From a virus: a DNA stretch of 32,642 bases. Under the pieces are notes generated by a model. It was given only the letters and a program-made list of their open reading frames with translations. It searched no databases and was not told the origin of the DNA. The stretch is taken from positions 7,016 through 39,657 of the IMG/VR virus record IMGVR_UViG_3300030106_002099; one strand, written 5' to 3'. Positions 3,063 through 32,538 of this stretch are shown one piece after another (within the stretch, counting starts at the first letter, position 1; each line of letters opens with the position of its first letter). Position numbers and translations under genes: made by a program.

Positions 3063-3252
3063 GTTAGACATCAAGATAGTTGACTTCGATGCAGCTAAAT
3101 ACGACCTAGAACGCTACGAGAATATCCATCTTAGTCCTTTTAAGGTGGGTTTTCTTGTTTATCAAGACAATAAACTCATACACACAGCTTGGTTTACCAA
3201 TGAATCGGCCTTATTCAAAGGTTTAGATAGCTATTTAGATTCTTTTGATTGA
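3055..3252 (+). CDS. Hypothetical protein, last gene of the plus-strand operon
   Basis: A 65-residue soluble protein starting at a GTG at 3055; no ATG is available near the start and no strong ribosome binding site is visible, so the start is uncertain. It overlaps the membrane-peptide gene by 8 bases. Its 3' end overlaps the convergent small-terminase gene by 22 bases, leaving no room for a terminator. No family is recognised. Confidence 0.5.
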   Translation: MNKLDIKIVDFDAAKYDLERYENIHLSPFKVGFLVYQDNKLIHTAWFTNESALFKGLDSYLDSFD

Positions 3253-3794
3253 TCTTTTACTTCTTCCAAGACTTCGCCAGAGTTTTTTTTATTCTCAATA
3301 CTTGCCTCAACAATATTACCCATAAGCTGTTTTAACCTAGCTTCGACTTCTTCCCGACTCATTTGATCTACTTTCCCGAACTTAACTTCCTTCCGATCTA
3401 CAATTAGACCCCCGACTTTTAACAAAGAGTTTTGAGCTGAGATTGCAGCATTAAATGACCCTGCTTCCATAGCTTTATCTCTAATGTCGTATAAATCTTG
3501 CACCGCCCGATCATAATTCAATTCATACTTCTTTTTGGCCTGATTCATCAAATAATTATACTCTTGCCTGATTAATGGCTTATCCATGAGCTTATTGGCC
3601 GCTTGACGAGGATCTTTATACCCAGCTTTGTAAGCACATTCTACTAACGATAAACGAGGATTATTGACTGCGATCCAAATAAAATTACGCTGTCTACGAT
3701 TTAGTTTCGTATCCAGATTGCAGTATTCTATTGGGGCTTCTTCGTCAGACGACAGGATTGGTGCATATTCTAGTTTATTTTTTCTATGTCCCAT
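3231..3794 (-). CDS. terS: Terminase small subunit
   Basis: A 187-residue protein of the small-terminase type, which recognises phage DNA for packaging and recruits the large terminase motor. Residues about 31-85 form the typical helix-turn-helix DNA-binding region: the L-N-R-R-Q-R-N-F opening, A-Y-K-A-G-Y-K-D-P in the middle and Q-A-A-N-K-L-M-D-K-P before the last helix. This is followed by a helical oligomerisation region and an acidic/basic tail. The length is normal for the family. No large subunit gene is in the window, which is unusual because the two are generally adjacent. Here it lies last in a leftward transcript after the methyltransferase block, with its own candidate promoter at 3861-3890. 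Confidence 0.8.
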   Translation of the reverse strand: MGHRKNKLEYAPILSSDEEAPIEYCNLDTKLNRRQRNFIWIAVNNPRLSLVECAYKAGYKDPRQAANKLMDKPLIRQEYNYLMNQAKKKYELNYDRAVQDLYDIRDKAMEAGSFNAAISAQNSLLKVGGLIVDRKEVKFGKVDQMSREEVEARLKQLMGNIVEASIENKKNSGEVLEEVKDQSKESK

Positions 3795-4021: not shown

Positions 4022-4261
4022 TTAACGAGGTATCGTTTTATCGGCATATTTCGCCAGTAATTCAACTACCAGGTTTGCTACTTCTTTGTCATCAAACTCA
4101 TTGTTAAGCTGTGAAATACAAAAACTAAGAGCAGCCAACACAATATTAAGTTTATCCTCACCCCGATATTCCATATTTTGGAACATCACATCTAGGCGCT
4201 CACAAACTTCGTGTAATGTGGGTTTCCCCATCTTTTCTTTGATTGCTACCAATTTTGGCAT
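4022..4261 (-). CDS. Small hypothetical helical protein
   Basis: A 79-residue protein from the ATG at 4261, or 84 residues if the GTG at 4276, two bases after the upstream stop, is used. No ribosome binding site decides between them. It is helical and acidic, with a leucine-rich second half. I do not recognise a family. It follows the PAPS-reductase-like gene in the same leftward transcript. Confidence 0.55.
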   Translation of the reverse strand: MPKLVAIKEKMGKPTLHEVCERLDVMFQNMEYRGEDKLNIVLAALSFCISQLNNEFDDKEVANLVVELLAKYADKTIPR

Positions 4262-4278
4262 ATCGCATAATAACACGA

Positions 4279-5028
4279 TTAGTCATTTTGCATACAAAAA
4301 ATACCACATTCAAAGTCATAACTTTTTAAATCACGACCTTTTGCATCAGCTGGTAGATCTTTCAACAGTATTCTTTCACCCTTATAACGAGCGAGTTTTG
4401 CACCTAATTTATTAGATGTTTTAACTCTTTCCTCAAATACATCAGGAAAAGTTCTTCTTACTAAGTTCCAATACGTAGGTGAGGTTGCTTTGACACACCC
4501 AATACAGTTTGCGTTTGGAAAACCGAGTTTATAGATCTCTGGCAGTTTAATACCTTCCTGCAACAAAATATCAAAACACATTTGCTTTGTTATGCCCTGA
4601 TCTATTAACACAGGCAAAAGATTGTCTTTTTGTGTTTCTTTAAACCTAGAGGCCCGTTTCTTTTCATCAAAAGTAAATCCTAGAACAATATAATCAGTAT
4701 CATGGCGTAATTCCCAATATCTTCTTGCGTTCTTTTTTAAGTGTAAGGTGCATGGCGCACCGAAATTACTAGACATAAAAGCTGTTTTTTGCCATACAGT
4801 CTCACAAGATTGATCTGGAAATTTAGGATTAATTGCATATTCTATTTTAACACCTAGCCATTGCTCAACATCTTTTAAAAATCTTCTGTTATCTTTGTGT
4901 TCTTCTTTAATCGGGTTATTGACAACTCTAATTGTGTTGTCTTGACCATATAGCTCTATAGTTTTCTTAGCCGCTACTGCACTTGCAGCACCACAACTAA
5001 ACCAAACAGTAATGCTTTTGCCTTTCAT
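4279..5028 (-). CDS. PAPS reductase-like PP-loop enzyme
   Basis: A 249-residue protein of the adenine-nucleotide alpha-hydrolase superfamily (phosphoadenosine phosphosulfate reductase-like, the group that includes DndC). The pyrophosphate-binding loop is near the N-terminus: F-S-C-G-A-A-S at residues 10-16, a variant of the S-G-G-x-D-S loop. Cysteines at about 93, 175, 178, 241 and 245 (C-I-G-C and C-G-I-F-C pairs) could hold an iron-sulfur cluster, as in DndC-type and APS-reductase proteins. The ATG overlaps the stop of the methyltransferase gene by four bases (ATGA), so the two are translationally coupled. Possible roles are sulfur or nucleotide chemistry for DNA or tRNA modification. The family is clear, the substrate is not. 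Confidence 0.8.
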   Translation of the reverse strand: MKGKSITVWFSCGAASAVAAKKTIELYGQDNTIRVVNNPIKEEHKDNRRFLKDVEQWLGVKIEYAINPKFPDQSCETVWQKTAFMSSNFGAPCTLHLKKNARRYWELRHDTDYIVLGFTFDEKKRASRFKETQKDNLLPVLIDQGITKQMCFDILLQEGIKLPEIYKLGFPNANCIGCVKATSPTYWNLVRRTFPDVFEERVKTSNKLGAKLARYKGERILLKDLPADAKGRDLKSYDFECGIFCMQND

Positions 5029-6464
5029 TTAATATTCTTATAAATATGCTTGATCACTTCTACAGTCCAACCATTGCCTAACATCTTGTATCGCTGGGTA
5101 TTTGAAACATGATTTGTATAGTTGTCTGGTACTGTTTGCAGTCTTTCACATTCCAAAGGTGTGAGTTTTCTCCAAGTAAGCTCTCCTTTTTCAATACTTA
5201 TCTCATGATCTTTGTTAAGACTAGGCGTTACTGTCCCAACTTTTCCGTCCTTTCTCGGCTCTAGCTTCTTAGATCTAAAAGGTGTGTGGTCTTTACCTGT
5301 TTTTTGTCTTGTCATCCTACGCATTTTTTTGGCTTCATCTGTTCTTACTTCCCTATAAGATTGAACGGCTACCTTTGGCTCTCTATGGCCACCACCACAA
5401 GTCGTTACTGTGGGCGACTTACCATCTGGACTATACACTCGCTTGATCTGATCGTGTCCTTTTATATCTACTGCAACACCTACTTGTTTTGGCTTAGTTT
5501 CTATTTTTGGTACTGTGCCTTTGCCTGCGTGTGCTGTAATAGTAGGACTTTTACCATCTTCACTATAAATTCTTTTAAGAATGTCATGTCCTGGTGTGTT
5601 ATCTCTGCCTACCATTTTTGGCTTAGTTTCAATCATCTGCTCTTTGTTTGATGCAAGCACCTTAGGTATGTTGTTTGTGCCACCACCGCCATTACCTATG
5701 CCATTCAAAGTAGGAGATTTACCTTTGGTGTCAAATAAACCACCACCATAATGATTACCTTTTTCACCTGCAAGTTTAATTGGCTTATTTACCAACTGCC
5801 TTCTATGTTTTTTCTTGTATTGTTCAACACTTGCACCTTTGTAATAATTTGCATCTATACAATGTGCTTTATCTCTTTCACTATCAAAGCTGTCTTCCAA
5901 TATATCTCTTAGCACTATGCCTCTATCCTCTGGTTGCTTTATACCAGGTATGTTAGTCCAGTAATATCTTTGCCTTGACTGAGCGCTTAGAAGCGAACTA
6001 TTAATAAAAATAGGCTCAAACCTCACTTCTCCTAAAACATTTAAGAATTGATTATCAACATCTTCTGGCGCATAACACTGAGACAGTTGATCTGTTATCA
6101 CTTCCAAAAACTCTTTCTTCATTCTGACATTTTCAAGTAAAAAGTATTTTGGTTTAATTTCTTTAAGTAAGCGTATGAACTCAAAAAACAACGCAGATCT
6201 AGGATCATCAAAAGCAAGCTGCTTACCTGCAAACGAGAATCCTTGGCAAGGTGAGCCAGCCTGTATAAGGTCTACATCTTTATAATCTTCTGCATTTAGA
6301 TTGCATACGTCTCCGACTTGTATAGTATTTGGAAAGTTATTCTGTGTAACCTTTATGGCATACTTGTCAATCTCACTTGCATAGTATTTTTCTACAGGTA
6401 TATCTAATTGATCTAGTGCGATCTGACCGCAACTCATACCATCAAATAAACTTAATACCTTCAT
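5025..6464 (-). CDS. DNA cytosine-5 methyltransferase with repeated TRD
   Basis: A 479-residue C5-cytosine DNA methyltransferase. Motif I is F-D-G-M-S-C-G (residues 7-13). Motif IV is G-S-P-C-Q with the catalytic Cys73. Motif VI is E-N-V (111-113), motif VIII Q-S-R-Q-R-Y-Y (162-168), motif IX around 434-440 and motif X G-N-G-W-T-V-E-V (463-470). All catalytic elements are present. The target-recognition region (about 200-430) is unusually long and contains three G-K-S-P-T units (248-252, 304-308, 348-352), the last two preceded by K-R-I/V-Y-S-x-D. A diverged G-K-V-G-T-V-T-P follows at 407-414. Likely roles are self-protection from host restriction or marking phage DNA. The specificity cannot be read from sequence. 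Confidence 0.92.
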   Translation of the reverse strand: MKVLSLFDGMSCGQIALDQLDIPVEKYYASEIDKYAIKVTQNNFPNTIQVGDVCNLNAEDYKDVDLIQAGSPCQGFSFAGKQLAFDDPRSALFFEFIRLLKEIKPKYFLLENVRMKKEFLEVITDQLSQCYAPEDVDNQFLNVLGEVRFEPIFINSSLLSAQSRQRYYWTNIPGIKQPEDRGIVLRDILEDSFDSERDKAHCIDANYYKGASVEQYKKKHRRQLVNKPIKLAGEKGNHYGGGLFDTKGKSPTLNGIGNGGGGTNNIPKVLASNKEQMIETKPKMVGRDNTPGHDILKRIYSEDGKSPTITAHAGKGTVPKIETKPKQVGVAVDIKGHDQIKRVYSPDGKSPTVTTCGGGHREPKVAVQSYREVRTDEAKKMRRMTRQKTGKDHTPFRSKKLEPRKDGKVGTVTPSLNKDHEISIEKGELTWRKLTPLECERLQTVPDNYTNHVSNTQRYKMLGNGWTVEVIKHIYKNIK

Positions 6465-6476
6465 GCTTTTTTGGTA

Positions 6477-6716
6477 TTATTCAATGGGTCGACCCCAACT
6501 GTCATAGTTATAGAAAGGTGGCTCATCTTGCACTACGTCTGCATATTTAAAGTTCTGCACTTCTTCTTGAGGATTAGAAGGGACACTTCCAATGATCTTC
6601 TTATGATGTTTAATATATGATTGCACCAAGTCTTTGGATTCGCCCATAACAATATCATTGTTGGCACAATCAAAAGCGTCTCTCTTATCCATATGTAAGT
6701 TTTTTAATTTACTCAT
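6477..6716 (-). CDS. Small hypothetical protein, first gene of leftward operon
   Basis: A 79-residue soluble protein with a basic middle (K-H-H-K-K) and an aromatic, proline-rich C-terminus (P-P-F-Y-N-Y-D-S-W-G-R-P). No family is recognised. The start ATG has AAGGAG nine bases upstream. It leads the leftward transcript that goes on to the methyltransferase 12 bases downstream, and is driven by the divergent promoter at 6771-6798. Confidence 0.6.
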   Translation of the reverse strand: MSKLKNLHMDKRDAFDCANNDIVMGESKDLVQSYIKHHKKIIGSVPSNPQEEVQNFKYADVVQDEPPFYNYDSWGRPIE

Positions 6717-9891: not shown

Positions 9892-12015
9892 GTGTTTCAG
9901 CTTAATATTACTGAGGACGACACATCCTTAGAGCAAGCACTTGCTTACTATGACGAAGGCTACAACGTTGTTCCATTACAAAGATCTAACAAAAAGCCAC
10001 CACCTTTTCTGAAAGGTTGGGAGCAATATAAACAGGAGCGACCGTCTAGAGACCTTGTAAAGTCATGGTTTGAGGGTAAGGATAATTTAGTTGTTGCTCT
10101 TGTTTGCGGTAAGTTTATTGTCGTAGATGCTGATTCTCCAGAGGCTATGAGTTGGGTGGAGAACAATTTACCACCTTGTCCTTTCAAAGTTGTTACTGGT
10201 AAAGGTATGCACTACTATTACAACAACCCACAAAACTACACCACCTTTGCTACAAGGAGAACTCCAGAGACACCCATTGAAAGATTAATAGATATAAGAG
10301 GTGTAGGTGGACTAATCATTGCACCTTGGAATAGACATGCTAACGGACAAATATATAAACCTATAACGTTTCCTGATTGGAAAATTACAGATCACACAGA
10401 CTTACCTGACTTTACAGAGATAGAGTTTGCAAAAATCACTGGCGTTCCAAAAACAGAAACAAGCGTGCAAACAGCACCTTTTCTATTAGATGGTGTATTA
10501 GAAGGATCAAGGAATGATGAGGCCGCAAGAATAGCAGGCTATCTAATATCTAAAAATGTAAACATTGAGTTTGTAAAGATCTTTCTACAAAACTGGAACA
10601 AAAACAATAATCCACCATTACCACAAGAAGAGATTGAAAGAGTAGTTACAAGTGTTAAAAGCACACATGATAGAAAAAATCAGATCGCACCTTTGTTTGT
10701 ACAAGCAAGTGAAACCATACACAAACCTAGAGATCTATTTAATCCACCTGGGTTACTCAAAGATATGTTTAAGTTTTGTGAGGAGATAGCACAAGTGCCA
10801 CAGCCAGAGCTGTCTTTAGTAGGTGCCTTAGCATTAGCAAGTGTAACCTGTGGACGTATCTATAGAACAAACATGAACAACTTTTCATCTATGTATTTCA
10901 TGGGTATTGCAAAGTCAGGACAAGGTAAAGAAAACATAAAAACATTTGTAGAGTCAGTGTTAAACGCTAGTGACCATGAAAAGCTTGTAGTAGGAGATGG
11001 TTACACATCATCTGGTGCAGTGCACTCAGTTCTTAAAATGCGACCAACACAAATTACAATTATGGATGAGTTTGGTAAAAGACTTGAAGCCATTGGTGCA
11101 TCACAAAACACAAACAGAGAAGATGGCATACAAACACTGATGGAAGCTTGGGGTAGGTGTCATGGAACATTGCGGCCAGATAACTATTCATTGATGAATG
11201 TGCAAGAACAATATAAAGAAATGATGATGAGCCGTGTTACACATAAGCCTGCAATCACATTGGTTGGTCTGTCAGTGCCGAAGAACTTTTACAAAGCATT
11301 GAATAGTGGGCGTATAGCTGACGGGTTTCTCAATCGTTTTGTTGTCGTTGAATCAAAAGAGCCAAGACGAGTAGGTGAGTTACGAAGATTCAAAGAGCCA
11401 CCAACATCAATTGTCAATTGGGTCAACTATATACGCAGACAAAGAGGCAATATGAGTGATGTATCACGGGATAATGCAGAGATAGATCTTGACCAGATAG
11501 TTCTTAGGTTTGATAGAGAATCAGAAGAAATACTACAAGATTTTGCCCGTGAGATCGTAAAACGCCAAGATATACTAGAAAAAGACAACCTAGAGCCACT
11601 TCTAAGCCGTTCTAAGGAGAAAGCTATGCGTTTAGCCCTGTTATGCACACTTGCCTCTAACGCTGACGCACAGACGATTACAGGCGATATTACAACGTGG
11701 GCTGTGGATTTCATCAGATATTACGATCTGTTGTTTATAGAGGCTTGTAGAGACAAGGTTGCTAGCAGTGCTATGGAAGCCAAAATTAAACAGGTGCTAT
11801 CGTTTATTAGATCTAGAAACGGTGAAGGAATATCCAAGCGTGAAGTAGATAGGCACGAACTATTTAGAAGTATGAAGTCGTATGAGGTCAAAGAGATTAT
11901 TGAAAGACTTAAAAATGCAGGTGAAATACAAGAGGTTGAGATTAAGATTGGTGGTAAAGGAAGGCCAGCTAAAAGATTTGTAGCTGTTGATCCTACTTTC
12001 TTTGAGGATATTTAA
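9892..12015 (+). CDS. Prim-Pol/D5-like primase-helicase
   Basis: A 707-residue replication protein. The N-terminal third is a bifunctional primase-polymerase (Prim-Pol/AEP) domain with the metal-binding D-A-D (79-81), the catalytic-type K-G-M-H (104-107) and I-D-I-R-G (133-137). Residues about 204-260 look like a primase C-terminal helical domain. The rest is a DUF3987/D5-like helicase with a Walker A variant A-K-S-G-Q-G-K-E (340-347) and Walker B M-D-E-F-G (391-395). It ends in a winged-helix-like region. The start is a GTG one base after the regulator stop; no better start is obvious. It would prime and unwind at the phage origin. Its stop codon overlaps that of the convergent virion gene. 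Confidence 0.88.
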   Translation: MFQLNITEDDTSLEQALAYYDEGYNVVPLQRSNKKPPPFLKGWEQYKQERPSRDLVKSWFEGKDNLVVALVCGKFIVVDADSPEAMSWVENNLPPCPFKVVTGKGMHYYYNNPQNYTTFATRRTPETPIERLIDIRGVGGLIIAPWNRHANGQIYKPITFPDWKITDHTDLPDFTEIEFAKITGVPKTETSVQTAPFLLDGVLEGSRNDEAARIAGYLISKNVNIEFVKIFLQNWNKNNNPPLPQEEIERVVTSVKSTHDRKNQIAPLFVQASETIHKPRDLFNPPGLLKDMFKFCEEIAQVPQPELSLVGALALASVTCGRIYRTNMNNFSSMYFMGIAKSGQGKENIKTFVESVLNASDHEKLVVGDGYTSSGAVHSVLKMRPTQITIMDEFGKRLEAIGASQNTNREDGIQTLMEAWGRCHGTLRPDNYSLMNVQEQYKEMMMSRVTHKPAITLVGLSVPKNFYKALNSGRIADGFLNRFVVVESKEPRRVGELRRFKEPPTSIVNWVNYIRRQRGNMSDVSRDNAEIDLDQIVLRFDRESEEILQDFAREIVKRQDILEKDNLEPLLSRSKEKAMRLALLCTLASNADAQTITGDITTWAVDFIRYYDLLFIEACRDKVASSAMEAKIKQVLSFIRSRNGEGISKREVDRHELFRSMKSYEVKEIIERLKNAGEIQEVEIKIGGKGRPAKRFVAVDPTFFEDI

Positions 12016-15000
12016 CCTAGTATAGGTCTACCAGCTACACGTTCAGCAAATTCAATACGTTCCTCTGATAACGGATCTGGTATCTGTGCTTGTGCTAGAT
12101 CGGGTGATTGCACTTGTGGTAAGGCTGGTGGTTGTTGGATTGGGCTTAACACTTGGTCACGTAATTGTTGAAAAGTATTAATACCACTTTCAGCTTGCTC
12201 TTCTATATCCTCATCAGTAATACCTACTGCTGTAGCACCTGCGTCAAAACCTTTGTCTAAGATACTAACTATTCCCTCACCAATAGGCACTATCTCGCCA
12301 TCAACGTAGCGTAAGCCAAACTGTCTTAATGAGGTGTTAAAAATACGCATGGCACGGGAAATAGAGCCAGGGTCTGATCTAGACATAACTCTTACAAATG
12401 GTGGGTAAGTCAGTAAAAACCTTGCGATTGCTAAACCAGCAACTGTTGGCAATGCTGTAAGTGGTTGAAAAACTATGGCCGCAGATATACCAGCAGCAAC
12501 CAAGCCACCAGCTGCACCACCTCTACCAGGCTCACCACCTGTAAGTATGTCTATTTGTTGTTGTAGATCACGTAGTCCTCGTCTAGTTTCAGCACCAAAC
12601 ATAGCATCAAGTGTTTCATCACCATAAGAATCAAGACTGGTTTTAAGGTTTTGTGACTTAAATAAATCAGTGATCTTACCCTGCCCATTCATATCAATTG
12701 ATTTTGATAAAAGCCTCTGCATACTAGCTCGTTGTATATCTTGGAAAACTTCTGGGCTTACTGTTTCTTTTAAAGCATTGATAGTTGATGCAGTCCCAGG
12801 TTTGAATACGGACTTAACTGTTTCTTCAATCGTTTTATCTGGCAGTTGTGATATAGCCCTATTTGCTTCAAACTTAATTCTATCTTCTGTGGCCTCTGCA
12901 AGTCTTTCTAATTGATTTACAAAAGCTCTACCTTGTGCACTAGCATCTAAACCACGTGTTGCATTTCTTTGCGTAATGTCATTAATTATATTTCTTAATT
13001 GTTGTGGTTTTGGACTAAAACCAATTTCGTTAAGTTGGTTTATAGTAGCTAACACTTCATCTGCTGTGTTTTTACCAGTGGCACTATCTTGAAATAAAAC
13101 CCTAAACTTACCGTGTTCTTTTTCAAATCTTTTTATTTCTTTTGCAAATTGTGTAAAGTTGACATCAGTAAGTTCATCTTTAGTGGCTTCACGTAAGGCA
13201 TCAGCAAACAAACGATTTTTAAGATCTGCTTTTAATTTATTCTCATAATAATTTTCTATGACGTTGCCCGCAGCATCACGTTTTTGATAAGTTTTATCTA
13301 CCTTTATGTATTCATCATAGTCACGCAAAGCTTTAAAAATATTCTCTAAATCAATTAATTTGCCATTTAATAATGCTTGTGAATAAACATCGTCAGCTTG
13401 TATAGATCCTTTAGCAGCATTTGCTATTAAACCGTTTATCTTTATAGAATCAAAAGGCTCCATTCTGTCAAAATGATTCTTATTTGCTATTCTTAGTTCT
13501 TCAAGAGTTCGATCTATTAATTTTTTTTCGTCAGGACGTAAGCGCATACCAGTATTTTCTAAGGCAAGCTCAATTTGTTTCATGCCATCTGCTTGTAACT
13601 CTGTAAGTATACTATCTGAATTTTGTATGCCTTTTTTACCAATACCATAATCATCAAACATTCTTGCTACATTAATGACAAGCTTTCTTTCATCAGATTG
13701 TTCAAGCACATCACGTAAAAACCTATTTAAAAAGTTTGAATCATTACGAACCATACGTAGATCGTATTTTCCTTGCTCTGCTAAAGACTTGGCTTTTCCT
13801 ACCAAATTTTGTAATTGTGCACGTACACTACTGTTTATCTCAGCTCCAGGAGGGGTCATGGTTTGAAATACACCTTTTTCGCTATCAAGTTTTAAAAACT
13901 CCTCTGCTTTGTTTATGTGCTTGAGAATAATATTGTTGATTGCTTTGTTAATAACTACAGATTTAGCGTATTCTTCATCTGTCTTTGTGCCTACAGGTCT
14001 TGGCATGCCATCTCTACCGACTTCATACAAATTTCTGTCGTCTGCAAAATTAACAAATTTTTGATCGACTGCATGATAAGATTCACCACTTTGCTCCATA
14101 GCTGCATTTCTTGCTTTATTCATGGTGTCTTTAAGCTCTTGTCCGAATACTCTATTTGCAGGTATGTTGCCATAATCTTTTGCTTCTATAACGCTGTCAC
14201 CTATTTCTCCTAATAATCTACGTAATTCGTTAGTAACATTCTGTTCTTGTAAACGAAGTTTTTGTGTTGCAGCATTTACCTGTTCATCAAGACCTCTTTT
14301 AGTGGATAAAGAAATAGTCTCGTTCAATGCTTCTTTTTCATTCTTTATGTTTTTTAATACACTGTTTACTGCAGCCCTTAAATAAGCAACATTTGGTTTA
14401 TCTCTACTGCTACCAAGGACTTGTTCAAAAATACCTTGATAAGTAGCAGGTAATCTTTGGTCATATACTTTTCTAGCAGGCAAAAATCCTTTTGATAAAG
14501 AGTATTCAAACTTTTGTACTTTACCCTCTTTAGCTGCTTTTAATATTTCATCATCAGAAAGTGGCCGTCCTTTTTCTCGATCCAGTTTTTTTACGTCAGC
14601 CCAACTTAAATTTCTTGACGCAACAAAACCTGCTCTTTGATTTTCTAAAGGAGCTCTTTTACCTAATATTGATTTAAAAGCCATACCAGGTAGCTCACCA
14701 AACAGAGCTTGTCCTACTGAGCCAAGCACAAATTCTTCTTTGTAAAGATCAGCCAACTCATCATTATCTTGTAATTGAAAGCCCTCTAATGCATCTAAAT
14801 ATTCCTCTCCTGCTTTACCTGCTACTGATCCAGTACCTGCCATAAATGTTCTAACTATTCTTTCTCTACCACCAGATAAAGTTGTAAGAGCTTTTAAAAT
14901 TTTAGTTTGGGGCATAAATGCAGCTATGGTGCCTATCACTGGGCCTGCGATACCTGAAAAGTCTGCCAGATCACCAGTTTTTAAATTGAAGCTATTTTCA

Positions 15001-15464
15001 TCTATAACAGTATTAAGATTTATAATTGTGCCATCTTGTAGTTTTCTTTGTTGCACAGGTAATCCCAAAAGTTGTAAGCCTTGTGGTGTCAAAGCCACTT
15101 GACCTTTAGTATTTCTTATATAGCCACCAGCTCCAACGGAATTTTGCAGTATGCCTTCTTGCTGTAGTGGCCCTTTAGATGCACGCACACGCTTCATCAA
15201 ATCGTCAAGTATTTTGTTTTGTTCTTTAAATGGGTCTTCGCCAGATATTTCAGCACGCCCTAGTTTTTGACGCAAACCTTTTGCATCTTCAGGTAAGTCA
15301 GCAGGATCAACACCTGTTTCATAATCAAAGTAAAGCTCATCGTAAAATGGTGAAACAGCTCCCTTAGCTATCTCAGCACGAGTTTTTTTTTGTGCTTCTT
15401 CTTCAGTAGCTGCATCTATGATGTGTGTTACACCTGGAGCTATTAATACTCTAAATCTTGGCAT
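12012..15464 (-). CDS. Very large helical virion protein (internal/ejection type)
   Basis: A 1150-residue protein, almost entirely helical and charged, with no recognised enzymatic motif. A glycine/alanine-rich hydrophobic stretch near residues 1005-1045 could insert in a membrane, and the C-terminus is proline- and glutamine-rich. It is the last of four consecutive large genes joined by one-base TAATG overlaps. Size, position and composition resemble the internal core or DNA-ejection proteins of podoviruses (the T7 gp14-gp16 set), but this is inference from organisation, not sequence identity. A tape-measure protein of a siphovirus is the main alternative. Its stop overlaps the convergent primase-helicase stop. 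Confidence 0.7.
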   Translation of the reverse strand: MPRFRVLIAPGVTHIIDAATEEEAQKKTRAEIAKGAVSPFYDELYFDYETGVDPADLPEDAKGLRQKLGRAEISGEDPFKEQNKILDDLMKRVRASKGPLQQEGILQNSVGAGGYIRNTKGQVALTPQGLQLLGLPVQQRKLQDGTIINLNTVIDENSFNLKTGDLADFSGIAGPVIGTIAAFMPQTKILKALTTLSGGRERIVRTFMAGTGSVAGKAGEEYLDALEGFQLQDNDELADLYKEEFVLGSVGQALFGELPGMAFKSILGKRAPLENQRAGFVASRNLSWADVKKLDREKGRPLSDDEILKAAKEGKVQKFEYSLSKGFLPARKVYDQRLPATYQGIFEQVLGSSRDKPNVAYLRAAVNSVLKNIKNEKEALNETISLSTKRGLDEQVNAATQKLRLQEQNVTNELRRLLGEIGDSVIEAKDYGNIPANRVFGQELKDTMNKARNAAMEQSGESYHAVDQKFVNFADDRNLYEVGRDGMPRPVGTKTDEEYAKSVVINKAINNIILKHINKAEEFLKLDSEKGVFQTMTPPGAEINSSVRAQLQNLVGKAKSLAEQGKYDLRMVRNDSNFLNRFLRDVLEQSDERKLVINVARMFDDYGIGKKGIQNSDSILTELQADGMKQIELALENTGMRLRPDEKKLIDRTLEELRIANKNHFDRMEPFDSIKINGLIANAAKGSIQADDVYSQALLNGKLIDLENIFKALRDYDEYIKVDKTYQKRDAAGNVIENYYENKLKADLKNRLFADALREATKDELTDVNFTQFAKEIKRFEKEHGKFRVLFQDSATGKNTADEVLATINQLNEIGFSPKPQQLRNIINDITQRNATRGLDASAQGRAFVNQLERLAEATEDRIKFEANRAISQLPDKTIEETVKSVFKPGTASTINALKETVSPEVFQDIQRASMQRLLSKSIDMNGQGKITDLFKSQNLKTSLDSYGDETLDAMFGAETRRGLRDLQQQIDILTGGEPGRGGAAGGLVAAGISAAIVFQPLTALPTVAGLAIARFLLTYPPFVRVMSRSDPGSISRAMRIFNTSLRQFGLRYVDGEIVPIGEGIVSILDKGFDAGATAVGITDEDIEEQAESGINTFQQLRDQVLSPIQQPPALPQVQSPDLAQAQIPDPLSEERIEFAERVAGRPILG

Positions 15465-20730: not shown

Positions 20731-21438
20731 TCATTCCTCGTTACATGTTAACCAAAATACCAAAAGGTATCTATCTCCTGATTCTACTGCTAGCCCTCTA
20801 TGCATATGCGTAAAACTAGGAAAAATTAGAGCGTGGCCTGTAGGTAATGGCTCAACTGTACCACGTTTTAAAAACTCAGTTCCGCCACCTTTGTACTCCC
20901 CCGTGTTCAAAGGAACTACCATACTTATGTCGGCACTAGCATCGTGATGCCAAGCACCTTGTTTTTTATCCTTTAAATTATAGTTTGCTATCTGGATTCC
21001 ACCCCCGTCTACGTGCCTATTCCAAATATTCAAAAATATAGGATTACCAATAGTATATATCGTTTGCATTAAAGATTGAAATATTTGTGGACAATTATCT
21101 TGAAAAGTTATTTCTGGTATTTGTCGTAAATTATCCTCTTCTAGGTTTGGTTTGAATCCAAAAAAAGACTCAAGGTGTTTCATTTCATCTAATAATATTT
21201 CACAAAACTTAGCTGAAAAGAATGGCACAGTGTAAACATCTTTTAATGGCTCATCTATTATTTTGTCTAATGCTGTAGGTTTTGGTGAGTTGGTACCACT
21301 TTCTTCATAAAAATCTACGATCGGATTGATTGAGTTTTTAACTGCTTTGAGGGTATCTTTTTGTATGTACCAATCGCTTGGATATGTAAGTAATAAGTTT
21401 TTTGGTTGATAAATAAGGTTTTCAGCTACGTTTATCAT
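20731..21438 (-). CDS. 2OG-Fe(II) oxygenase
   Basis: A 235-residue Fe(II)/2-oxoglutarate-dependent dioxygenase of the prolyl-hydroxylase-like type. The metal triad is W-H-H-D (His164 with Asp166) and the distal histidine in T-H-M-H-R-G (His213, or His211). The 2OG-binding arginine is R223 in S-G-D-R-Y. A G-G-G-T-E-F-L strand lies between them, as in the family. The start overlaps the upstream stop as ATGA. It lies inside the structural operon, so it might hydroxylate a virion protein, but such enzymes are common in marine phages and the substrate is unknown. Confidence 0.88.
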   Translation of the reverse strand: MINVAENLIYQPKNLLLTYPSDWYIQKDTLKAVKNSINPIVDFYEESGTNSPKPTALDKIIDEPLKDVYTVPFFSAKFCEILLDEMKHLESFFGFKPNLEEDNLRQIPEITFQDNCPQIFQSLMQTIYTIGNPIFLNIWNRHVDGGGIQIANYNLKDKKQGAWHHDASADISMVVPLNTGEYKGGGTEFLKRGTVEPLPTGHALIFPSFTHMHRGLAVESGDRYLLVFWLTCNEE

Positions 21439-24777: not shown

Positions 24778-26520
24778 TTATCTAATAGTATATATTGCTA
24801 AAGAGTGTTTTTTACCTTTAACTTTAATTGGTTTTAGTAATTCTAACTTAAAATTGCAAGATTTTTTAGTGTTATGACCTATTATTAAGTCTACCCCTAC
24901 ATCTTTTGTAGCACTTTCAAGTCTTGCAGCGGTGTTTACAGCATCGCCAATAGCACTATAATCAAAGCGTGTATCACTTCCCATATTACCTATTATTGCA
25001 AAGCCTGAATTTATGCCTATACCTATGTCTATTCCTAAATTGGATTGCTCCATGTCTGCCCGTATTTTCTGCGCTGCTAATATGGCTTTATTCTCATGAT
25101 CTTTTAAGTCTATTGGTGCATTGAAAATTGCCATCATTGCATCGCCTATGTATTTATCGACCATACCCCCATACTCTTTTACAGCATTTGCTTGAATTGT
25201 TAAAGCTTTGTTCATAATATGAGTAACTTCTTCTGGCTCTAGTTTTTCTGACAAACTTGTAAACCCTCTTACATCTGTAAATAAAAAAGTGCAATACTTT
25301 CTTTCACCACCTAGTTTTAATAAGTCAGGATTATCTTGTAATTGTTTTACTTGTCTAGGATCAAGATAATGCTCAAACTGTTTTTTAATTTCTTGTCTAA
25401 GCTTATATTGTTCTCTAAATCGTAAGTAAAAAGCTATAGAAGCAGTTATAAATTGTGATATTAAAGTCCAACTAACATCTACAAGTATTCCACGCTGTAT
25501 TAAATAGTATCCAGAAAATATTGTTAATAAAAATAATAGACTGGTAAATGTTATTCCTAGCGTTATTCCAAAAATATTTATTAAAAACCAGACAAATGTT
25601 ACTGTTATCACTAGAATTAATAATTCAACAGCTAAATGCCAGTCAGGAATATAAGGACTATCTTGTATTAAAATAGATTCTGCTAATGCAGCTTGTATCT
25701 TATGTGGCTCTAATAAACCTACAGGTGTTGCTATCTGAGGCATTACTCCACTTGCAGTAACTCCAACAATAACAAACTTACCATTAACATTCATTTCTTG
25801 TAAATCTGTTTGTGGTGTATCTACCCAACTAATCCACTTACGACCCAAAGTATCTGTTTTAACTGGTGGTATTCCTCGTATTGATATTTCCTCTATACCA
25901 TTATCACTAGTTTTTATAATGTATGTTTTAACATCAAATATTGATTTATATATTTGTGTGCCAAAACTAGGAATCCATTGATTTTCTGGAGTTTTAACTA
26001 AAAGAGGTATTCTTCTTACAAGCTGATCTACTTCAGTGGGAGCAATGGCTAAACCCTGCAATGTATTATCTGTAAGAGTGTTCAGGTTTTCCTTAACTCC
26101 CAAACTTACTATACCACCATTATCTTCGCCTTTCACTACTGTCCCTGTAGGTTTAGGATAATTACCTTTACCATCCTCAAACATAGCTATTACTGAAGGT
26201 GCATAACCAAGCGATCTAGCAAAATCTTTATCACCACCAAATCTATCAGCTTGTGGAAATGATATTGCCCAACCAACTCCTATAGCACCTTTAGCTAATA
26301 ACTCTATATTTATTTCTGCAAGTCTTTGTCTTGGCAAAGGATAACCACCTTCAACCTCTACATCTTCTTCAGTTATATTTAATATTACAAAATTTCCTGA
26401 TGGTTCTGGTGTTTTTATAAAAGTGTCATACACTCTAAGTTTTAATATTTCTGTTGGCGTTGACTGATATATTAATGGCAATAACAATAATATAACTATA
26501 GGTAATATTAGTTTTTTCAT
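24778..26520 (-). CDS. CHASE2-domain class III adenylate cyclase
   Basis: A 580-residue membrane cyclase making cAMP from ATP. An N-terminal anchor (3-18) precedes a periplasmic CHASE2 sensor (about 25-285). Three membrane spans follow (about 296-317, 320-342, 348-365), then a linker and the catalytic domain (about 405-560). The active site is complete. The metal-binding residues are Asp416 (F-T-D-V-R-G-F) and Asp460 (I-G-D). The adenine-selecting residues are Lys456 and Asp526. The transition-state residues are Asn529 and Arg533 in the D-A-V-N-T-A-A-R-L-E motif. The K/D pair predicts adenylate rather than guanylate cyclase. The start overlaps the FecR gene stop (TAATG). It is bacterial-type signalling machinery inside a phage late operon. 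Confidence 0.93.
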   Translation of the reverse strand: MKKLILPIVILLLLPLIYQSTPTEILKLRVYDTFIKTPEPSGNFVILNITEEDVEVEGGYPLPRQRLAEINIELLAKGAIGVGWAISFPQADRFGGDKDFARSLGYAPSVIAMFEDGKGNYPKPTGTVVKGEDNGGIVSLGVKENLNTLTDNTLQGLAIAPTEVDQLVRRIPLLVKTPENQWIPSFGTQIYKSIFDVKTYIIKTSDNGIEEISIRGIPPVKTDTLGRKWISWVDTPQTDLQEMNVNGKFVIVGVTASGVMPQIATPVGLLEPHKIQAALAESILIQDSPYIPDWHLAVELLILVITVTFVWFLINIFGITLGITFTSLLFLLTIFSGYYLIQRGILVDVSWTLISQFITASIAFYLRFREQYKLRQEIKKQFEHYLDPRQVKQLQDNPDLLKLGGERKYCTFLFTDVRGFTSLSEKLEPEEVTHIMNKALTIQANAVKEYGGMVDKYIGDAMMAIFNAPIDLKDHENKAILAAQKIRADMEQSNLGIDIGIGINSGFAIIGNMGSDTRFDYSAIGDAVNTAARLESATKDVGVDLIIGHNTKKSCNFKLELLKPIKVKGKKHSLAIYTIR

Positions 26521-27671
26521 TAGCTTTCCTGTTTAATTCTTATAATACTGCTACTACCACCATTTATCTTAATAGTTCTTGAAACACCATCTTGTATTAA
26601 AATTACTGTATAGCTACCATCTGAATCTATATCAACTCTTGCTGTATTATTTACACTTCTTAATATCGTAAGTTTTTCACCTGTAATAAAAGTAGTAATC
26701 TGAGTGTCTAAATCTTGACCAAATCTAGTTCCTGCAATAGCTATAGATGATACATCTGCTTGTAATTGATCCTGTTCTTCTTGTATATTTAATTCATCAA
26801 GAACATCTAATAAATCTTCTAAAAAATTAACATCTAAATAATTAATATCAAGTTCAGTAAATTCTAAATCAGCTTCATTATCTAAAAAATCTTCTTCTAA
26901 ATAATCTATATCAAGATCATTAAAATCTAAAATAGTATTTGACTGTGCAACAATTTCTTCTTGTTCTAATTGTTTTTCTTCAGGTGGTGATACTATTAAT
27001 ATGTTATCAATTAAATCAAGAGATAAATCTAATATTACTGGTTTACTAGGAGAGTTTTCAAAAACAGAAACAGTAGTAGCTTCAAAAGGTTTATTTAGTA
27101 TGACACTTCCTGTTGCTGTTATTACCTCTATTTCTCCACTAGATAATCCATATTTATCTGGTAAAAGAATAATTAAACTTTCTCCTAACTCATTAACTGT
27201 AGCTGTAAAGTCTGTTCCTCTAATAGCTATATTAGCAGTAGGAGTTTTTAAAGATATATTCTTTTTATTAAGTTTATCTATATTCCCAGAAATAAATCTA
27301 GTTGTTCCAATAGCAAATGTGAGTGCCATTTTAGATTTGCTTGGGTCTGGATCATATATATACTCGTCTATTAACAGTTGACTATGTTCTGTAAGTCTAA
27401 CTGTAGAATCATCAAGAAATGTTATAGCCATACGACCATTAGAAGTTATGGCTTCATCATTGCTTTGTATATCAAAATCTACAAAAGCATCTAAGGGTTT
27501 ATCCCTTACTATTTGTGCATTACCTCTTAGTTCAGATATGTCTCCAATATTAACATCCTGTGGTTGTGCCTTGATCGTCTTGAACGACACAAATATTGGA
27601 ATTAGAAGTATTGCTAATAATTTTAAGATAATCCCTTGCAAGGGTAGATGATTGCGTAATATCAATATCAT
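26520..27671 (-). CDS. Secreted FecR-domain protein
   Basis: A 383-residue protein with an N-terminal signal sequence (hydrophobic core about residues 14-30, cleavage probably after K-A-Q). A FecR domain follows (about 70-165 of the mature region), with a D-D-S-T-V-R-L-T-E-H-S segment and the hallmark T-P-T-A-N-I-A-I-R-G-T-D-F. Residues about 247-293 are very acidic leucine-rich repeats (L-D-I-D-Y-L-E-E-D-F-L-D, then L-D-I-N-Y-L-D-V-N-F-L). The C-terminus is beta-rich. The ATG at 27671 has GGGAG five bases upstream; an ATG at 27683 is possible. The gene overlaps the curlin gene by 122 bases. FecR proteins usually transmit periplasmic signals; next to a CHASE2 cyclase it is probably a sensor partner. 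Confidence 0.85.
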   Translation of the reverse strand: MILILRNHLPLQGIILKLLAILLIPIFVSFKTIKAQPQDVNIGDISELRGNAQIVRDKPLDAFVDFDIQSNDEAITSNGRMAITFLDDSTVRLTEHSQLLIDEYIYDPDPSKSKMALTFAIGTTRFISGNIDKLNKKNISLKTPTANIAIRGTDFTATVNELGESLIILLPDKYGLSSGEIEVITATGSVILNKPFEATTVSVFENSPSKPVILDLSLDLIDNILIVSPPEEKQLEQEEIVAQSNTILDFNDLDIDYLEEDFLDNEADLEFTELDINYLDVNFLEDLLDVLDELNIQEEQDQLQADVSSIAIAGTRFGQDLDTQITTFITGEKLTILRSVNNTARVDIDSDGSYTVILIQDGVSRTIKINGGSSSIIRIKQES

Positions 27672-28275
27672 TTGAACTCCCATCTAAATCTAGGTAAAAA
27701 TATCCAGAATCAGCAGATGTCGTTCCTGAATAACCACTAGCTGTAAAATCTATCGCATTTGAACTTCCATTAATATCAAGATAATTAATTGCATTTTCAT
27801 AATCAATATCAAAATCTAAAACATTGCTATCACCTAAAATAACCCAGTCCAAATCAAGATAAGAAGAATCAGCATTTTCTGCTATAGCTAAATCAAATTC
27901 ATTGCTTGAACCTGTAACATCAATATTAAGATTTACATAATCAGCACTTATAAGACCTGTGCTATTCATAAGTATATCCATAATATTAGAGTCACCATTC
28001 CACTCAAAATACCCAGTAAAGTTATCACCATCAATAGCATCTGATCTAAATATGTTAGAACTACCTATCTGATTAATGTCAAGTGTCATTGACACACCAT
28101 CAAGGTCTAAAGCAGTCATTGTTCCAGATGTAGCTTGTGTCCCACCTATTAAGTTTGATGACCCAAGTTGTTCTAAATCAATGGTAGCTGAGTTGCCTGA
28201 TTGATCTACATATATTTCATTATCTGCAAAAACAGACAGTGATAAAAATAAAAAAACATTTAATAATTTATTCAT
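27550..28275 (-). CDS. Secreted curlin-repeat protein (CsgA/CsgB-like)
   Basis: A 241-residue exported protein with a signal peptide (1-17, cleaved after V-F-A). It has seven G-S/D-S-N repeat units at 38-41, 71-74, 94-97, 122-125, 148-151, 170-173 and 199-202, plus edge units Q-S-G-N (25-28) and N-S-N (225-227). Units follow the curlin pattern of alternating hydrophobic strand residues around G-x-x-N. They are longer (22-33 residues) and acidic, and mostly lack the glutamines of enteric CsgA repeats. Two cysteines near the end (229, 241) may form a disulfide. It is directly downstream of csgF and csgG homologues, so it is the likely secreted amyloid subunit. A nucleator role (CsgB) is equally possible. 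Confidence 0.75.
   Translation of the reverse strand: MNKLLNVFLFLSLSVFADNEIYVDQSGNSATIDLEQLGSSNLIGGTQATSGTMTALDLDGVSMTLDINQIGSSNIFRSDAIDGDNFTGYFEWNGDSNIMDILMNSTGLISADYVNLNIDVTGSSNEFDLAIAENADSSYLDLDWVILGDSNVLDFDIDYENAINYLDINGSSNAIDFTASGYSGTTSADSGYFYLDLDGSSNDIDITQSSTLARDYLKIISNTSNSNICVVQDDQGTTTGC
27670..28164 (-). repeat. Curlin-like G-S-S-N coding repeats
   Basis: Seven units with the core G-S-S-N or G-D-S-N, spaced 33, 23, 28, 26, 22 and 29 residues apart. At DNA level several units share G-G-A/G-A-G-T-T-C-A-A-A-T, which also resembles a ribosome binding site and start codon when shifted by one frame. Confidence 0.75.
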
Positions 28276-29080
28276 ATTTCCAGTACCCTCTCTCGTACCC
28301 TATATTTATAAGTTGTAAAACTGCACCCTCAATAGCTTTCATTAAAGCTAAAGTAGTACTCTCATTCGAGGCAGAACCTATTTCTACCTCTACAAGCTCA
28401 GTTCCCATTTCTATAAATTTAAAGACATCCTGAGACTGTCCATAACTATATATTATTTTTTGCGACATAACTTCTATTAATATTTCACCTGTTGCTACTG
28501 ATACCATTCGCAAACTTACACTAACAGAATCTTCTCTATACTGCATACTAGAGCCAATGCCTAAATATCTTGCACCTATTCCGCCAGTAGATATATTACT
28601 ATCATAAGATACAACTGCACCTTCTAACAATACACCTGCAAAAAGTAAAGGTGATAAGATACTTTGATCATCTAATTGTTCTCTCGTTGATCTTATAAGT
28701 TGTCTTTCTTTTGTAAGATTATCAAGTCCTACTCTTTCTACTACACGAAAAAAATTTCCATCTGAAGCGTGTTTTAATGACCTTATAAGTATAGTATTTG
28801 GTGCTTGTGTTATTGCTGATGAAAACATAGCAAACTCACTATTACTTTTTCTTTGTCCTGTTTGATCAGTAAATGCAGTAGGATATACAGCTACAACTGG
28901 TTTTACTAAAGGTGGTTGTATATTTGCTAAATCTTTTGATTGTAGATCATAGATACTAAAAGTTTCTCTACCTTCTAAATTTAAGGTTTTTGGATTTGTT
29001 TCTCTAACTACATCTATAAGACTGCAACTAGAAAGAAAAATCCCCGAGAGGCAAAGATATTTCAGTTGTTGTACCATCAT
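28268..29080 (-). CDS. csgG: CsgG curli secretion pore lipoprotein
   Basis: A 270-residue outer-membrane lipoprotein of the CsgG family, whose members form a nonameric pore exporting curli subunits. The lipobox is L-S-S-C with lipidated Cys19. The core matches enteric CsgG closely, for example V-E-R-V-G-L-D-N-L near 114-122, the S-N-I-S-T-G-G-I-G-A-R-Y-L-G-I-G block (161-176), V-A-T-G-E-I-L (195-201) and G-Y-E-R-G-Y-W at the end. The length is normal. In the constriction loop, enteric Phe56 is kept (Phe86 here) but Tyr51 and Asn55 appear replaced by Ser and Met in my hand alignment. It overlaps csgF by 53 bases and the curlin gene by 8. Confidence 0.93.
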   Translation of the reverse strand: MMVQQLKYLCLSGIFLSSCSLIDVVRETNPKTLNLEGRETFSIYDLQSKDLANIQPPLVKPVVAVYPTAFTDQTGQRKSNSEFAMFSSAITQAPNTILIRSLKHASDGNFFRVVERVGLDNLTKERQLIRSTREQLDDQSILSPLLFAGVLLEGAVVSYDSNISTGGIGARYLGIGSSMQYREDSVSVSLRMVSVATGEILIEVMSQKIIYSYGQSQDVFKFIEMGTELVEVEIGSASNESTTLALMKAIEGAVLQLINIGYERGYWKYE

Positions 29081-29528
29081 TAGTATTAAAAATTGTTAGT
29101 ATTATCATACCATCTTCTATTTTATATGAGATGATATTACCTTCTAGTTCAAATGTGCCTTCCGTTGATTGTGTTTCACCAAACATATTTTCTACAATCT
29201 GTCTGGATATTTGTGCATAAATACGACTTTCTAAATTTCTTATAAATCTTGCTAATGTAGTATTCTCAGCATCTCTTTCTAATTCATCTTGTAATGCTTT
29301 TATTTCTTCTTTTATAGTCATCTTACGCATATGTTCTTGATTTTCTATCGTAAGATAATGAGAACTTGTATTTACACCAGAAAAAGATGGTGACTTAAAT
29401 TTAAAAGTTATTTGATCAGCACTTAAATTAATACCAATAATGCCTAAAGACATTACTAAACCTATTATTAGCAAGCTTCTAATTATAAATATTTTTTCTT
29501 GTTCTTCTTTAATCTTTTCTTTGATCAT
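29028..29528 (-). CDS. csgF: CsgF-like curli assembly factor
   Basis: A 166-residue exported protein. After a long charged n-region and a hydrophobic signal core (about 17-35), the mature part begins near Asp38 with I-T-F-K-F-K-S-P-S-F-S-G. This corresponds to the CsgF N-terminus (F-x-F-x-x-P-x-F-x-G) that plugs into the CsgG channel. The middle is helical, including L-E-S-R-I-Y-A-Q-I (99-107). The C-terminus (about 120-160) has the beta-rich pattern ending D-G-T-T-T-E-I-S-L-P, like the CsgF tail. Its position directly before csgG supports the call. It overlaps the upstream membrane gene by 20 bases. Somewhat longer than enteric CsgF because of the n-region and a helical insert. Confidence 0.82.
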   Translation of the reverse strand: MIKEKIKEEQEKIFIIRSLLIIGLVMSLGIIGINLSADQITFKFKSPSFSGVNTSSHYLTIENQEHMRKMTIKEEIKALQDELERDAENTTLARFIRNLESRIYAQISRQIVENMFGETQSTEGTFELEGNIISYKIEDGMIILTIFNTNDGTTTEISLPLGDFSF

Positions 29529-31845: not shown

Positions 31846-32538
31846 CTATGCATCCCAACAGTTAAGGTTAGAAGCTATTGTTCGCCTTTCACCTTCACCT
31901 TTGAAAGGATAAACCATATGTTGTAACCAAGATGGAAATATCAACAACTTGCCTATTTCTGGTGTCATTACAAATGATTGTGCTGGTTTAAGTCTATCAC
32001 TATCTATAACTGAAACTTGTCCGTATTGAAAAGCTATACAGCCATCTGAATGTCCTGATTCATTATACAAAGAATACGTTGGACTATTAGCTGTTGCTTT
32101 TTTGCCTATCTGTGAAGGTACTTTAGTCCAAGCTGTAGTAGATATACCCATAAGAGTTTTAGTGCCATGATCGTGAATAGGATTATAGTCACCATCGTAA
32201 CTATGAACTGACCAAGTTTCATCAATTTCAACTCTTTTTGCATTTTTTAATTTATTACCCATATTAGCAAAGTTTCTAATATATTCAGCACCCAAACCAC
32301 ATATAAAATCATTATATGCAATCAAACGCTTGTCTGTGTGATCTAATAATAATTGTTCTCCACTATGTATTTGACCAACTAATGTTTTAGCTAATGACTC
32401 TTTATTTTTACTTTCTCTATATTCATCCATATAGTCGTTGACATCATCAATCATGTCTTGCGGCATCTGTGTTTCTAAGACATATACCGCAGGCATATTA
32501 TGGAATTTATATTCTACTTTTGCTTCCCCATTATCCAT
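31846..32538 (-). CDS. Second 2OG-Fe(II) oxygenase, PF13759-like
   Basis: A 230-residue putative 2OG-Fe(II) oxygenase of a type common in marine phages. The proximal metal site is N-P-I-H-D-H-G (His122, Asp123, His124). The distal site is F-P-S-W-L-Q-H-M-V (His207), followed by an arginine (Arg218/219) that would bind 2OG. It is a different subfamily from the enzyme at 20731-21438. The start at 32538 is two bases after the upstream stop. Substrate unknown. Confidence 0.82.
   Translation of the reverse strand: MDNGEAKVEYKFHNMPAVYVLETQMPQDMIDDVNDYMDEYRESKNKESLAKTLVGQIHSGEQLLLDHTDKRLIAYNDFICGLGAEYIRNFANMGNKLKNAKRVEIDETWSVHSYDGDYNPIHDHGTKTLMGISTTAWTKVPSQIGKKATANSPTYSLYNESGHSDGCIAFQYGQVSVIDSDRLKPAQSFVMTPEIGKLLIFPSWLQHMVYPFKGEGERRTIASNLNCWDA

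Follow-up and report, generated by a model that had tools for sequence, protein, structure and literature searches.

The locus analysed here raises the question of whether a PP-loop enzyme and a DNA methyltransferase, encoded by overlapping genes of a marine phage, act together in the modification of phage DNA, and of what the PP-loop enzyme does. The window, i.e. the whole stretch of DNA under analysis, comprises 32.6 kb out of a 39.7-kb IMG/VR virus record. In a search for the nearest cultured relative of this phage, the 1150-aa ORF at 12012-15464 gave no match among 50,697 phage records, and the primase matched at less than 60% identity only. The features of the gene pair and its surroundings are as follows:

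4279-5028, minus strand: putative sulfurtransferase (PP-loop protein, PptA family) of 249 aa, ATG start, loop SCGAAS at residues 11-16
5025-6464, minus strand: C5-cytosine DNA methyltransferase, 479 aa, ATG start, with tandem target-recognition-like cassettes
5025-5028, minus strand: ATGA stop/start overlap (4 bases) of the PP-loop and methyltransferase genes
5358-5792, minus strand: approximate extent of three methyltransferase cassettes, with GKSPT[LIV][TN] units at residues 248, 304 and 348 (boundaries set by eye)
4022-4276, minus strand: 84-aa ORF that follows the PP-loop gene after 2 bases and is retained beside it in close relatives
6477-6716, minus strand: 79-aa ORF upstream of the methyltransferase, retained in close relatives

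Family searches, including PHROGs, gave no match for the 84-aa and 79-aa ORFs; beyond them, a weak match to a terminase small subunit was found at 3231-3794. ORF calls and family models agreed with the original prediction as to the elements of the pair: the ATGA overlap of four bases, a protein of the PP-loop/PAPS-reductase type and a C5-methyltransferase are all present, as are the altered loop S-C-G-A-A-S and the cysteines of the PP-loop protein.

The overlap had been taken as a sign of joint function. In mechanical gene calls of this genome (the longest non-overlapping ORFs, by which some small genes are missed), overlaps of 1-8 bases occur in 12 of 31 pairs of adjacent genes on one strand, three of which share exactly 4 bases. 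Since small overlaps are ordinary in this genome, the ATGA overlap is weak evidence for joint function. We then considered the neighbourhoods of the PP-loop gene, with genes called in the same mechanical way, counting methyltransferases of the C5 type and leaving N6 and N4 enzymes aside. A C5-methyltransferase gene was directly adjacent in 14 out of 167 loci, namely the window itself, 11 loci of related phages, where it also lies directly upstream, and two weaker matches, while most of the named phages examined carry the PP-loop gene without a methyltransferase next door. When 109 non-redundant viral loci were compared, C5-methyltransferases accounted for 6 of 368 genes at a distance of 1-2 genes, 5 of 498 at 3-5 and, beyond that distance, 7 of 823, so that enrichment near the PP-loop gene was not significant (near versus far, Fisher p 0.25). 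Within three genes on either side, no cluster of neighbours occurred in more than 9 of the 109 loci; two clusters reached 9, the C5-methyltransferase being one of them, at scattered positions. The pairing is thus kept in close relatives but shows no significant enrichment over the wider set, and, by the criterion set in the original prediction, the near-random surroundings refute the coupling while leaving the sulfur chemistry untouched.

The methyltransferase itself matches TIGR00675 with 166 bits, against a cut-off of 100.65, and contains the PCQGFS and ENV motifs. Its enlarged variable region is a series of cassettes, each built around GKSPT[LIV][TN], with ETKPKxVG-like linkers between them. 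Multi-specific C5-methyltransferases of phages are known, for example from Bacillus phages. The number and order of the cassettes vary between relatives, near-identical phages included, even where the PP-loop proteins are 98% identical (window versus locus L001), and the length of the enzyme varies from 479 aa in the window to 519 (L001), 595 (L002), 613 (L010), 570 (L011), 572 (L018), 586 (L023) and 496 aa (L068). In the window enzyme, one cassette is followed without a break by the tail (LASNKEQMIETKP) of a different one, which looks like the product of recombination. That the cassettes vary while the PP-loop protein remains 98% identical suggests that the methyltransferase evolves rapidly and on its own, under pressure from restriction. 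We propose that the methyltransferase is a separate, fast-diversifying anti-restriction enzyme, which shares a transcript with the PP-loop gene in this phage lineage; its place beside that gene is mostly a local coincidence. A single combined system for base methylation and sulfur modification, for which the overlap and the 11 related loci might speak, seems very improbable in view of the lack of significant enrichment, the methyltransferase-free surroundings in most named phages and the unequal pace of change of the two proteins.

Next, the family of the PP-loop protein was addressed by profile searches. In PHROGs it falls into phrog_424, "phosphoadenosine phosphosulfate reductase" (E 4e-39), and it gave no match in Pfam or NCBIfam; Pfam PAPS_reduct matches 27 of 68 aligned family members, the window protein not being among them. 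The SspD model of PADLOC matched it at E 2.9e-8 over residues 41-208, with true SspD proteins from eight loci scoring far better on that model (E 1e-91 to 1e-136). Among the 68 family members, the PADLOC model of SspD matched 65 (best 6.7e-18), that of BrxP two and that of DndC none (E 0.01). Comparison of profiles with hhalign, using profiles built from fetched loci, gave 98.3% and E 2.3e-14 against nine SspD proteins, 77.5% and E 1.9e-5 against APS/PAPS reductases, and 4.1% and E 0.01 against DndC. By these profiles, SspD, the PP-loop subunit of single-strand phosphorothioation, is the nearest sequence family, DndC and APS reductase being much more distant.

The protein had originally been described as DndC-type. 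This assignment was rejected, since, besides the absence of DndC matches among the 68 members and the low hhalign score, no TIGR03183 match was present in the record. What is shared with DndC is the PP-loop fold and, by eye, the core cysteine pattern (WCT, GCWTC), whereas the DndC proteins are larger (382-519 aa in the gene calls of four fetched examples), keep SGGKDS and work with DndD and DndE. Membership of the CysH/APS reductase family was rejected as well: there was no TIGR02055 match, and only the fold is shared. The fold was predicted with a pLDDT of 93.2 and a pTM of 0.88, the last eight residues lying below 50. Its best structural matches, in a library covering entries to April 2026 except 21fy (see below), were PAPS/APS reductases with Z 14.4-12.9, the top one being 7rge (Z 14.4, rmsd 3.7 over 169 residues); matches at Z 11.6-12.7 followed, with GMP synthetase, LarE (12.1), NcsA (11.8) and TtuA (11.6). 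This fold is common to the whole PP-loop superfamily and does not fix the function.

In order to identify residues under constraint, 11 homologues from named phages, retrieved by tblastn and hence free of motif bias (15 of 71 matching phage records were fetched), were compared with the window protein. C93, C151, C175, C178, C241 and C245 are kept in all 11, and are also present in the window protein; in one named phage four residues are inserted between C175 and C178. In larger sets the cysteine counts are partly biased by the retrieval patterns FECGIFCM and NNC, and with this reservation C93 and C175 were found in 237, C178 in 236, C151 in 235, and C241 and C245 in 234 of 237 proteins, i.e. 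those of at least 225 aa from 247 loci. One comparison of relatives left out L049 and L051 (the latter because of a stop codon), and another left out L156, L160 and L168, the partial loci L171 and L173 never having been included. Cultured phages with the gene include Vibrio phage VH-5, Rhizobium phage RHph_N65 and Puniceicoccales phage P8625. In Synechococcus phage S-SRP01 (L058, 6001-6734), the PptA-family gene extends over two frames, which may reflect a real frameshift or a sequencing error.

The loop cysteine C12 also seemed near-invariant (64 of 68 and 225 of 237 proteins). This was discarded as an artefact, because the DNA patterns used for retrieval contained the loop. In the 11 named-phage homologues the second loop position is occupied by C in six, N in two, and A, H and G in one each; since it varies, the loop cysteine is no hallmark of the family. 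The Lys and Asp positions of the SGGKDS loop, on the other hand, are always lost in these homologues. In the alignment, SCGAAS stands where SspD keeps SGGKDS or SGGRDS, and the replacement makes an ordinary ATP-dependent adenylation of phosphate doubtful. Phage "PAPS reductases" at a greater distance, those of Mycobacterium phage Lizziana, coliphage Huey and a PinkBerry-associated phage, have an SGGxxS loop and lack C151.

The core cysteines and a DE..R motif, in contrast to the loop, align with SspD: C93 (APCT) pairs with its WCT, and C175-x2-C178 with its GCxFC. C93, C175 and C178 are candidate ligands for a [4Fe-4S] cluster. C241-x3-C245 lies in the low-confidence C-terminal tail of the model and looks like a mobile arm; the same segment, ECGIFC, recalls the ECGLH tail that is present in eight of nine APS/PAPS reductases, E. 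coli CysH included. The loop of E. coli CysH is altered too (SFGIQAA). Together with the phrog_424 label and the top structural match, the resemblance of the tails would speak for the public annotation, which makes the protein a PAPS/APS reductase of the CysH type with an auxiliary role in assimilatory sulfate reduction. However, sequence similarity is weak, the curated family model is not matched, SspD is much closer, and the window protein shows no sign of sulfate metabolism. CysH, moreover, has no need of IscS, with which a homologue was co-deposited. We regard the annotation as highly implausible.

This homologue was the only real match in the PDB sequence set: chain C of entry 21fy, named PptA (phmmer E 1.5e-47 over residues 7-246; E 1.6e-87 in a profile search). 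Over 234 aa this chain has the same sequence as a protein of Vibrio phage vB_VhaP_VH-5 (GenBank QGH73774), annotated as hypothetical. The window protein resembles it with about 40% identity over residues 7-246 and the same six cysteines, and both are encoded by a single phage gene without a fixed partner; they differ in the loop (SCGAPS versus SCGAAS) and in that the VH-5 gene follows an RNA polymerase gene instead of a methyltransferase gene. As judged by sequence, the window protein is a further member of a kind of which a homologue has already been solved. A search with E. coli cysteine desulfurase IscS found its sequence in two PDB entries, one of them being 21fy. Since this entry contains both chains, PptA and host IscS are present in one solved structure, and presumably form a complex, as the co-deposition and the name suggest. 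Our guess is that PptA stands for "phage phosphorothioation"; a literature search that took in few subscription journals and no preprints found no paper on it. By analogy with VH-5, the window protein may likewise bind the cysteine desulfurase of its host.

According to PMC11662687 and PMC8569181, IscS is the sulfur donor for phosphorothioation in IscS-DndBCDE systems, where it forms a complex with DndC, DndD and DndE, so that a partnership of this kind is described for DndC as well. SspD is fed by a cysteine desulfurase, as we propose for PptA-type proteins. We checked whether the phages carry a desulfurase of their own. The cysteine desulfurase domain PF00266 was found in none of 36 phage records carrying the gene (11 named phages and 25 IMG/VR records, the latter possibly fragments), while 14 of 14 controls were positive. 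The lack of a detected phage-borne desulfurase fits host IscS as the source of sulfur, and very probably the PP-loop protein is a sulfurtransferase fed by IscS. Alternatively, by binding host IscS or SspA, the SspD-like protein would serve as a decoy or inhibitor that deprives phosphorothioation-based defence of its sulfur. The presumed complex in 21fy, the stand-alone gene in many different phages and the supply of host phosphorothioation systems by IscS (PMC11662687) would agree with this. Nevertheless, the 237 proteins, a set partly biased by retrieval, hardly vary at the six cysteines and at many polar positions, a constraint that a pure decoy would not be expected to show in full; we consider such a role quite improbable.

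The question of where an IscS-fed sulfurtransferase would place its sulfur was approached through partner genes. PADLOC found no Ssp or Dnd family among the 32 other ORFs of the window, the first 7 kb of the 39.7-kb record lying outside the scan. In Thalassotalea sp. 42_200_T64, in contrast, a cluster (L176, 483-7982, the same region as L164) carries SspB, SspC and SspD on the plus strand and SspA on the minus strand; a PptA-like gene comes next, upstream of sspA and in the same orientation, with 85 bases between the two. Adjacency to sspA is a single case, one out of the 167 loci first analysed and still one among 247 after additions. The gene is rare in bacterial chromosomes: it was found in 3 of 369 genomes of one class sample, including the centre genome, chosen for having it, and one broken copy, and in 2 of 385 genomes of a second class sample, the centre genome again included. 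One bacterial genome that also carries dndC contains a PptA-family copy with internal stop codons (L206). In some viral contigs (L051-L053, 4771-5604; L233, 860-1705), the PptA-family gene is preceded, at a distance of two to four genes, by one for a second, SspD-like protein.

Taken together, our preferred interpretation, to which we assign a probability of roughly 0.6, is that this phage protein of the PptA family is a sulfurtransferase that works alone, draws on IscS and most likely makes phosphorothioate DNA, DNA being the presumed substrate. The protein would dock on host IscS, in line with the co-deposition of its VH-5 homologue, and take over sulfur as a persulfide, probably through C-x3-C on its flexible C-terminal arm. 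From there, sulfur may be handed to an SspD-like active site made up of C93 and C175-x2-C178, whose core perhaps holds an iron-sulfur cluster, and would most likely be placed on the DNA backbone as phosphorothioate, a modification that might mark or protect phage DNA. All this would proceed without a phage desulfurase or an Ssp or Dnd partner, and independently of the methyltransferase. Of the DNA sulfur modification that had been anticipated, a sulfur transfer related to phosphorothioation is retained, with the PptA/IscS co-deposition, SspD as nearest family and the one sspABCD-linked homologue in its favour, while the joint function with the methyltransferase is not.

Against the phosphorothioate reading counts that no DNA-targeting partner, be it SspB/SspC or DndD/DndE, is present. 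SspD is encoded together with SspA, SspB and SspC, whereas phage proteins of the PptA type are encoded without such partners and have C-x3-C at their C-terminus. Given the degenerate ATP-pyrophosphatase loop and the absence of such a partner, the protein may depart from Dnd and Ssp in how phosphate is activated or in whether sulfur is introduced into DNA or into nucleotides. The same absence, along with the matches of the predicted fold to NcsA, TtuA and LarE, would also suit a protein that uses IscS-derived sulfur to thiolate RNA, like the tRNA thiolases TtcA and NcsA, or free nucleotides that are then incorporated by a polymerase. Since SspD is the nearest family in sequence and one homologue lies inside an sspABCD cluster, we think this alternative unlikely.

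Other genes of the phage include a curli (type VIII secretion) set at 24778-29528 on the minus strand, which comprises a CHASE2-adenylate cyclase, FecR, a curlin-like repeat protein, CsgG and CsgF; a similar arrangement of curli genes in pelagiphages is described in PMC9599517. The ORFs at 31846-32538 and 20731-21438, both on the minus strand, code for proteins that resemble 2OG-Fe(II) oxygenases and belong to two different Pfam families.

Viral "cysH" is counted among the globally conserved auxiliary metabolic genes, and in Baltic Sea sediment it was, according to PMC9301287, the most abundant auxiliary gene outside DNA modification and was read as viral sulfur cycling. The family studied here is publicly labelled as PAPS reductase, yet CysH is more distant from it than a phosphorothioation protein is, and the homologue of known structure shares its PDB entry with IscS. 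Tentatively, and with the odds rather against it, one may envisage a widespread one-gene viral route to sulfur-modified DNA, in which a PP-loop enzyme lacking the ATP-pyrophosphatase signature takes sulfur from host IscS and acts without Dnd or Ssp partners or a target-recognition subunit, perhaps on nucleotides before polymerisation; viral "cysH" would then often be a DNA-modification gene. In this way a common viral annotation becomes a hypothesis on DNA modification, the overlap of published "cysH" genes with the PptA family still being hypothetical. Detection of phosphorothioate in the DNA of a PptA-bearing phage would bring to light a common way in which phages modify their DNA, and would call for the revision of a far-reaching ecological claim.
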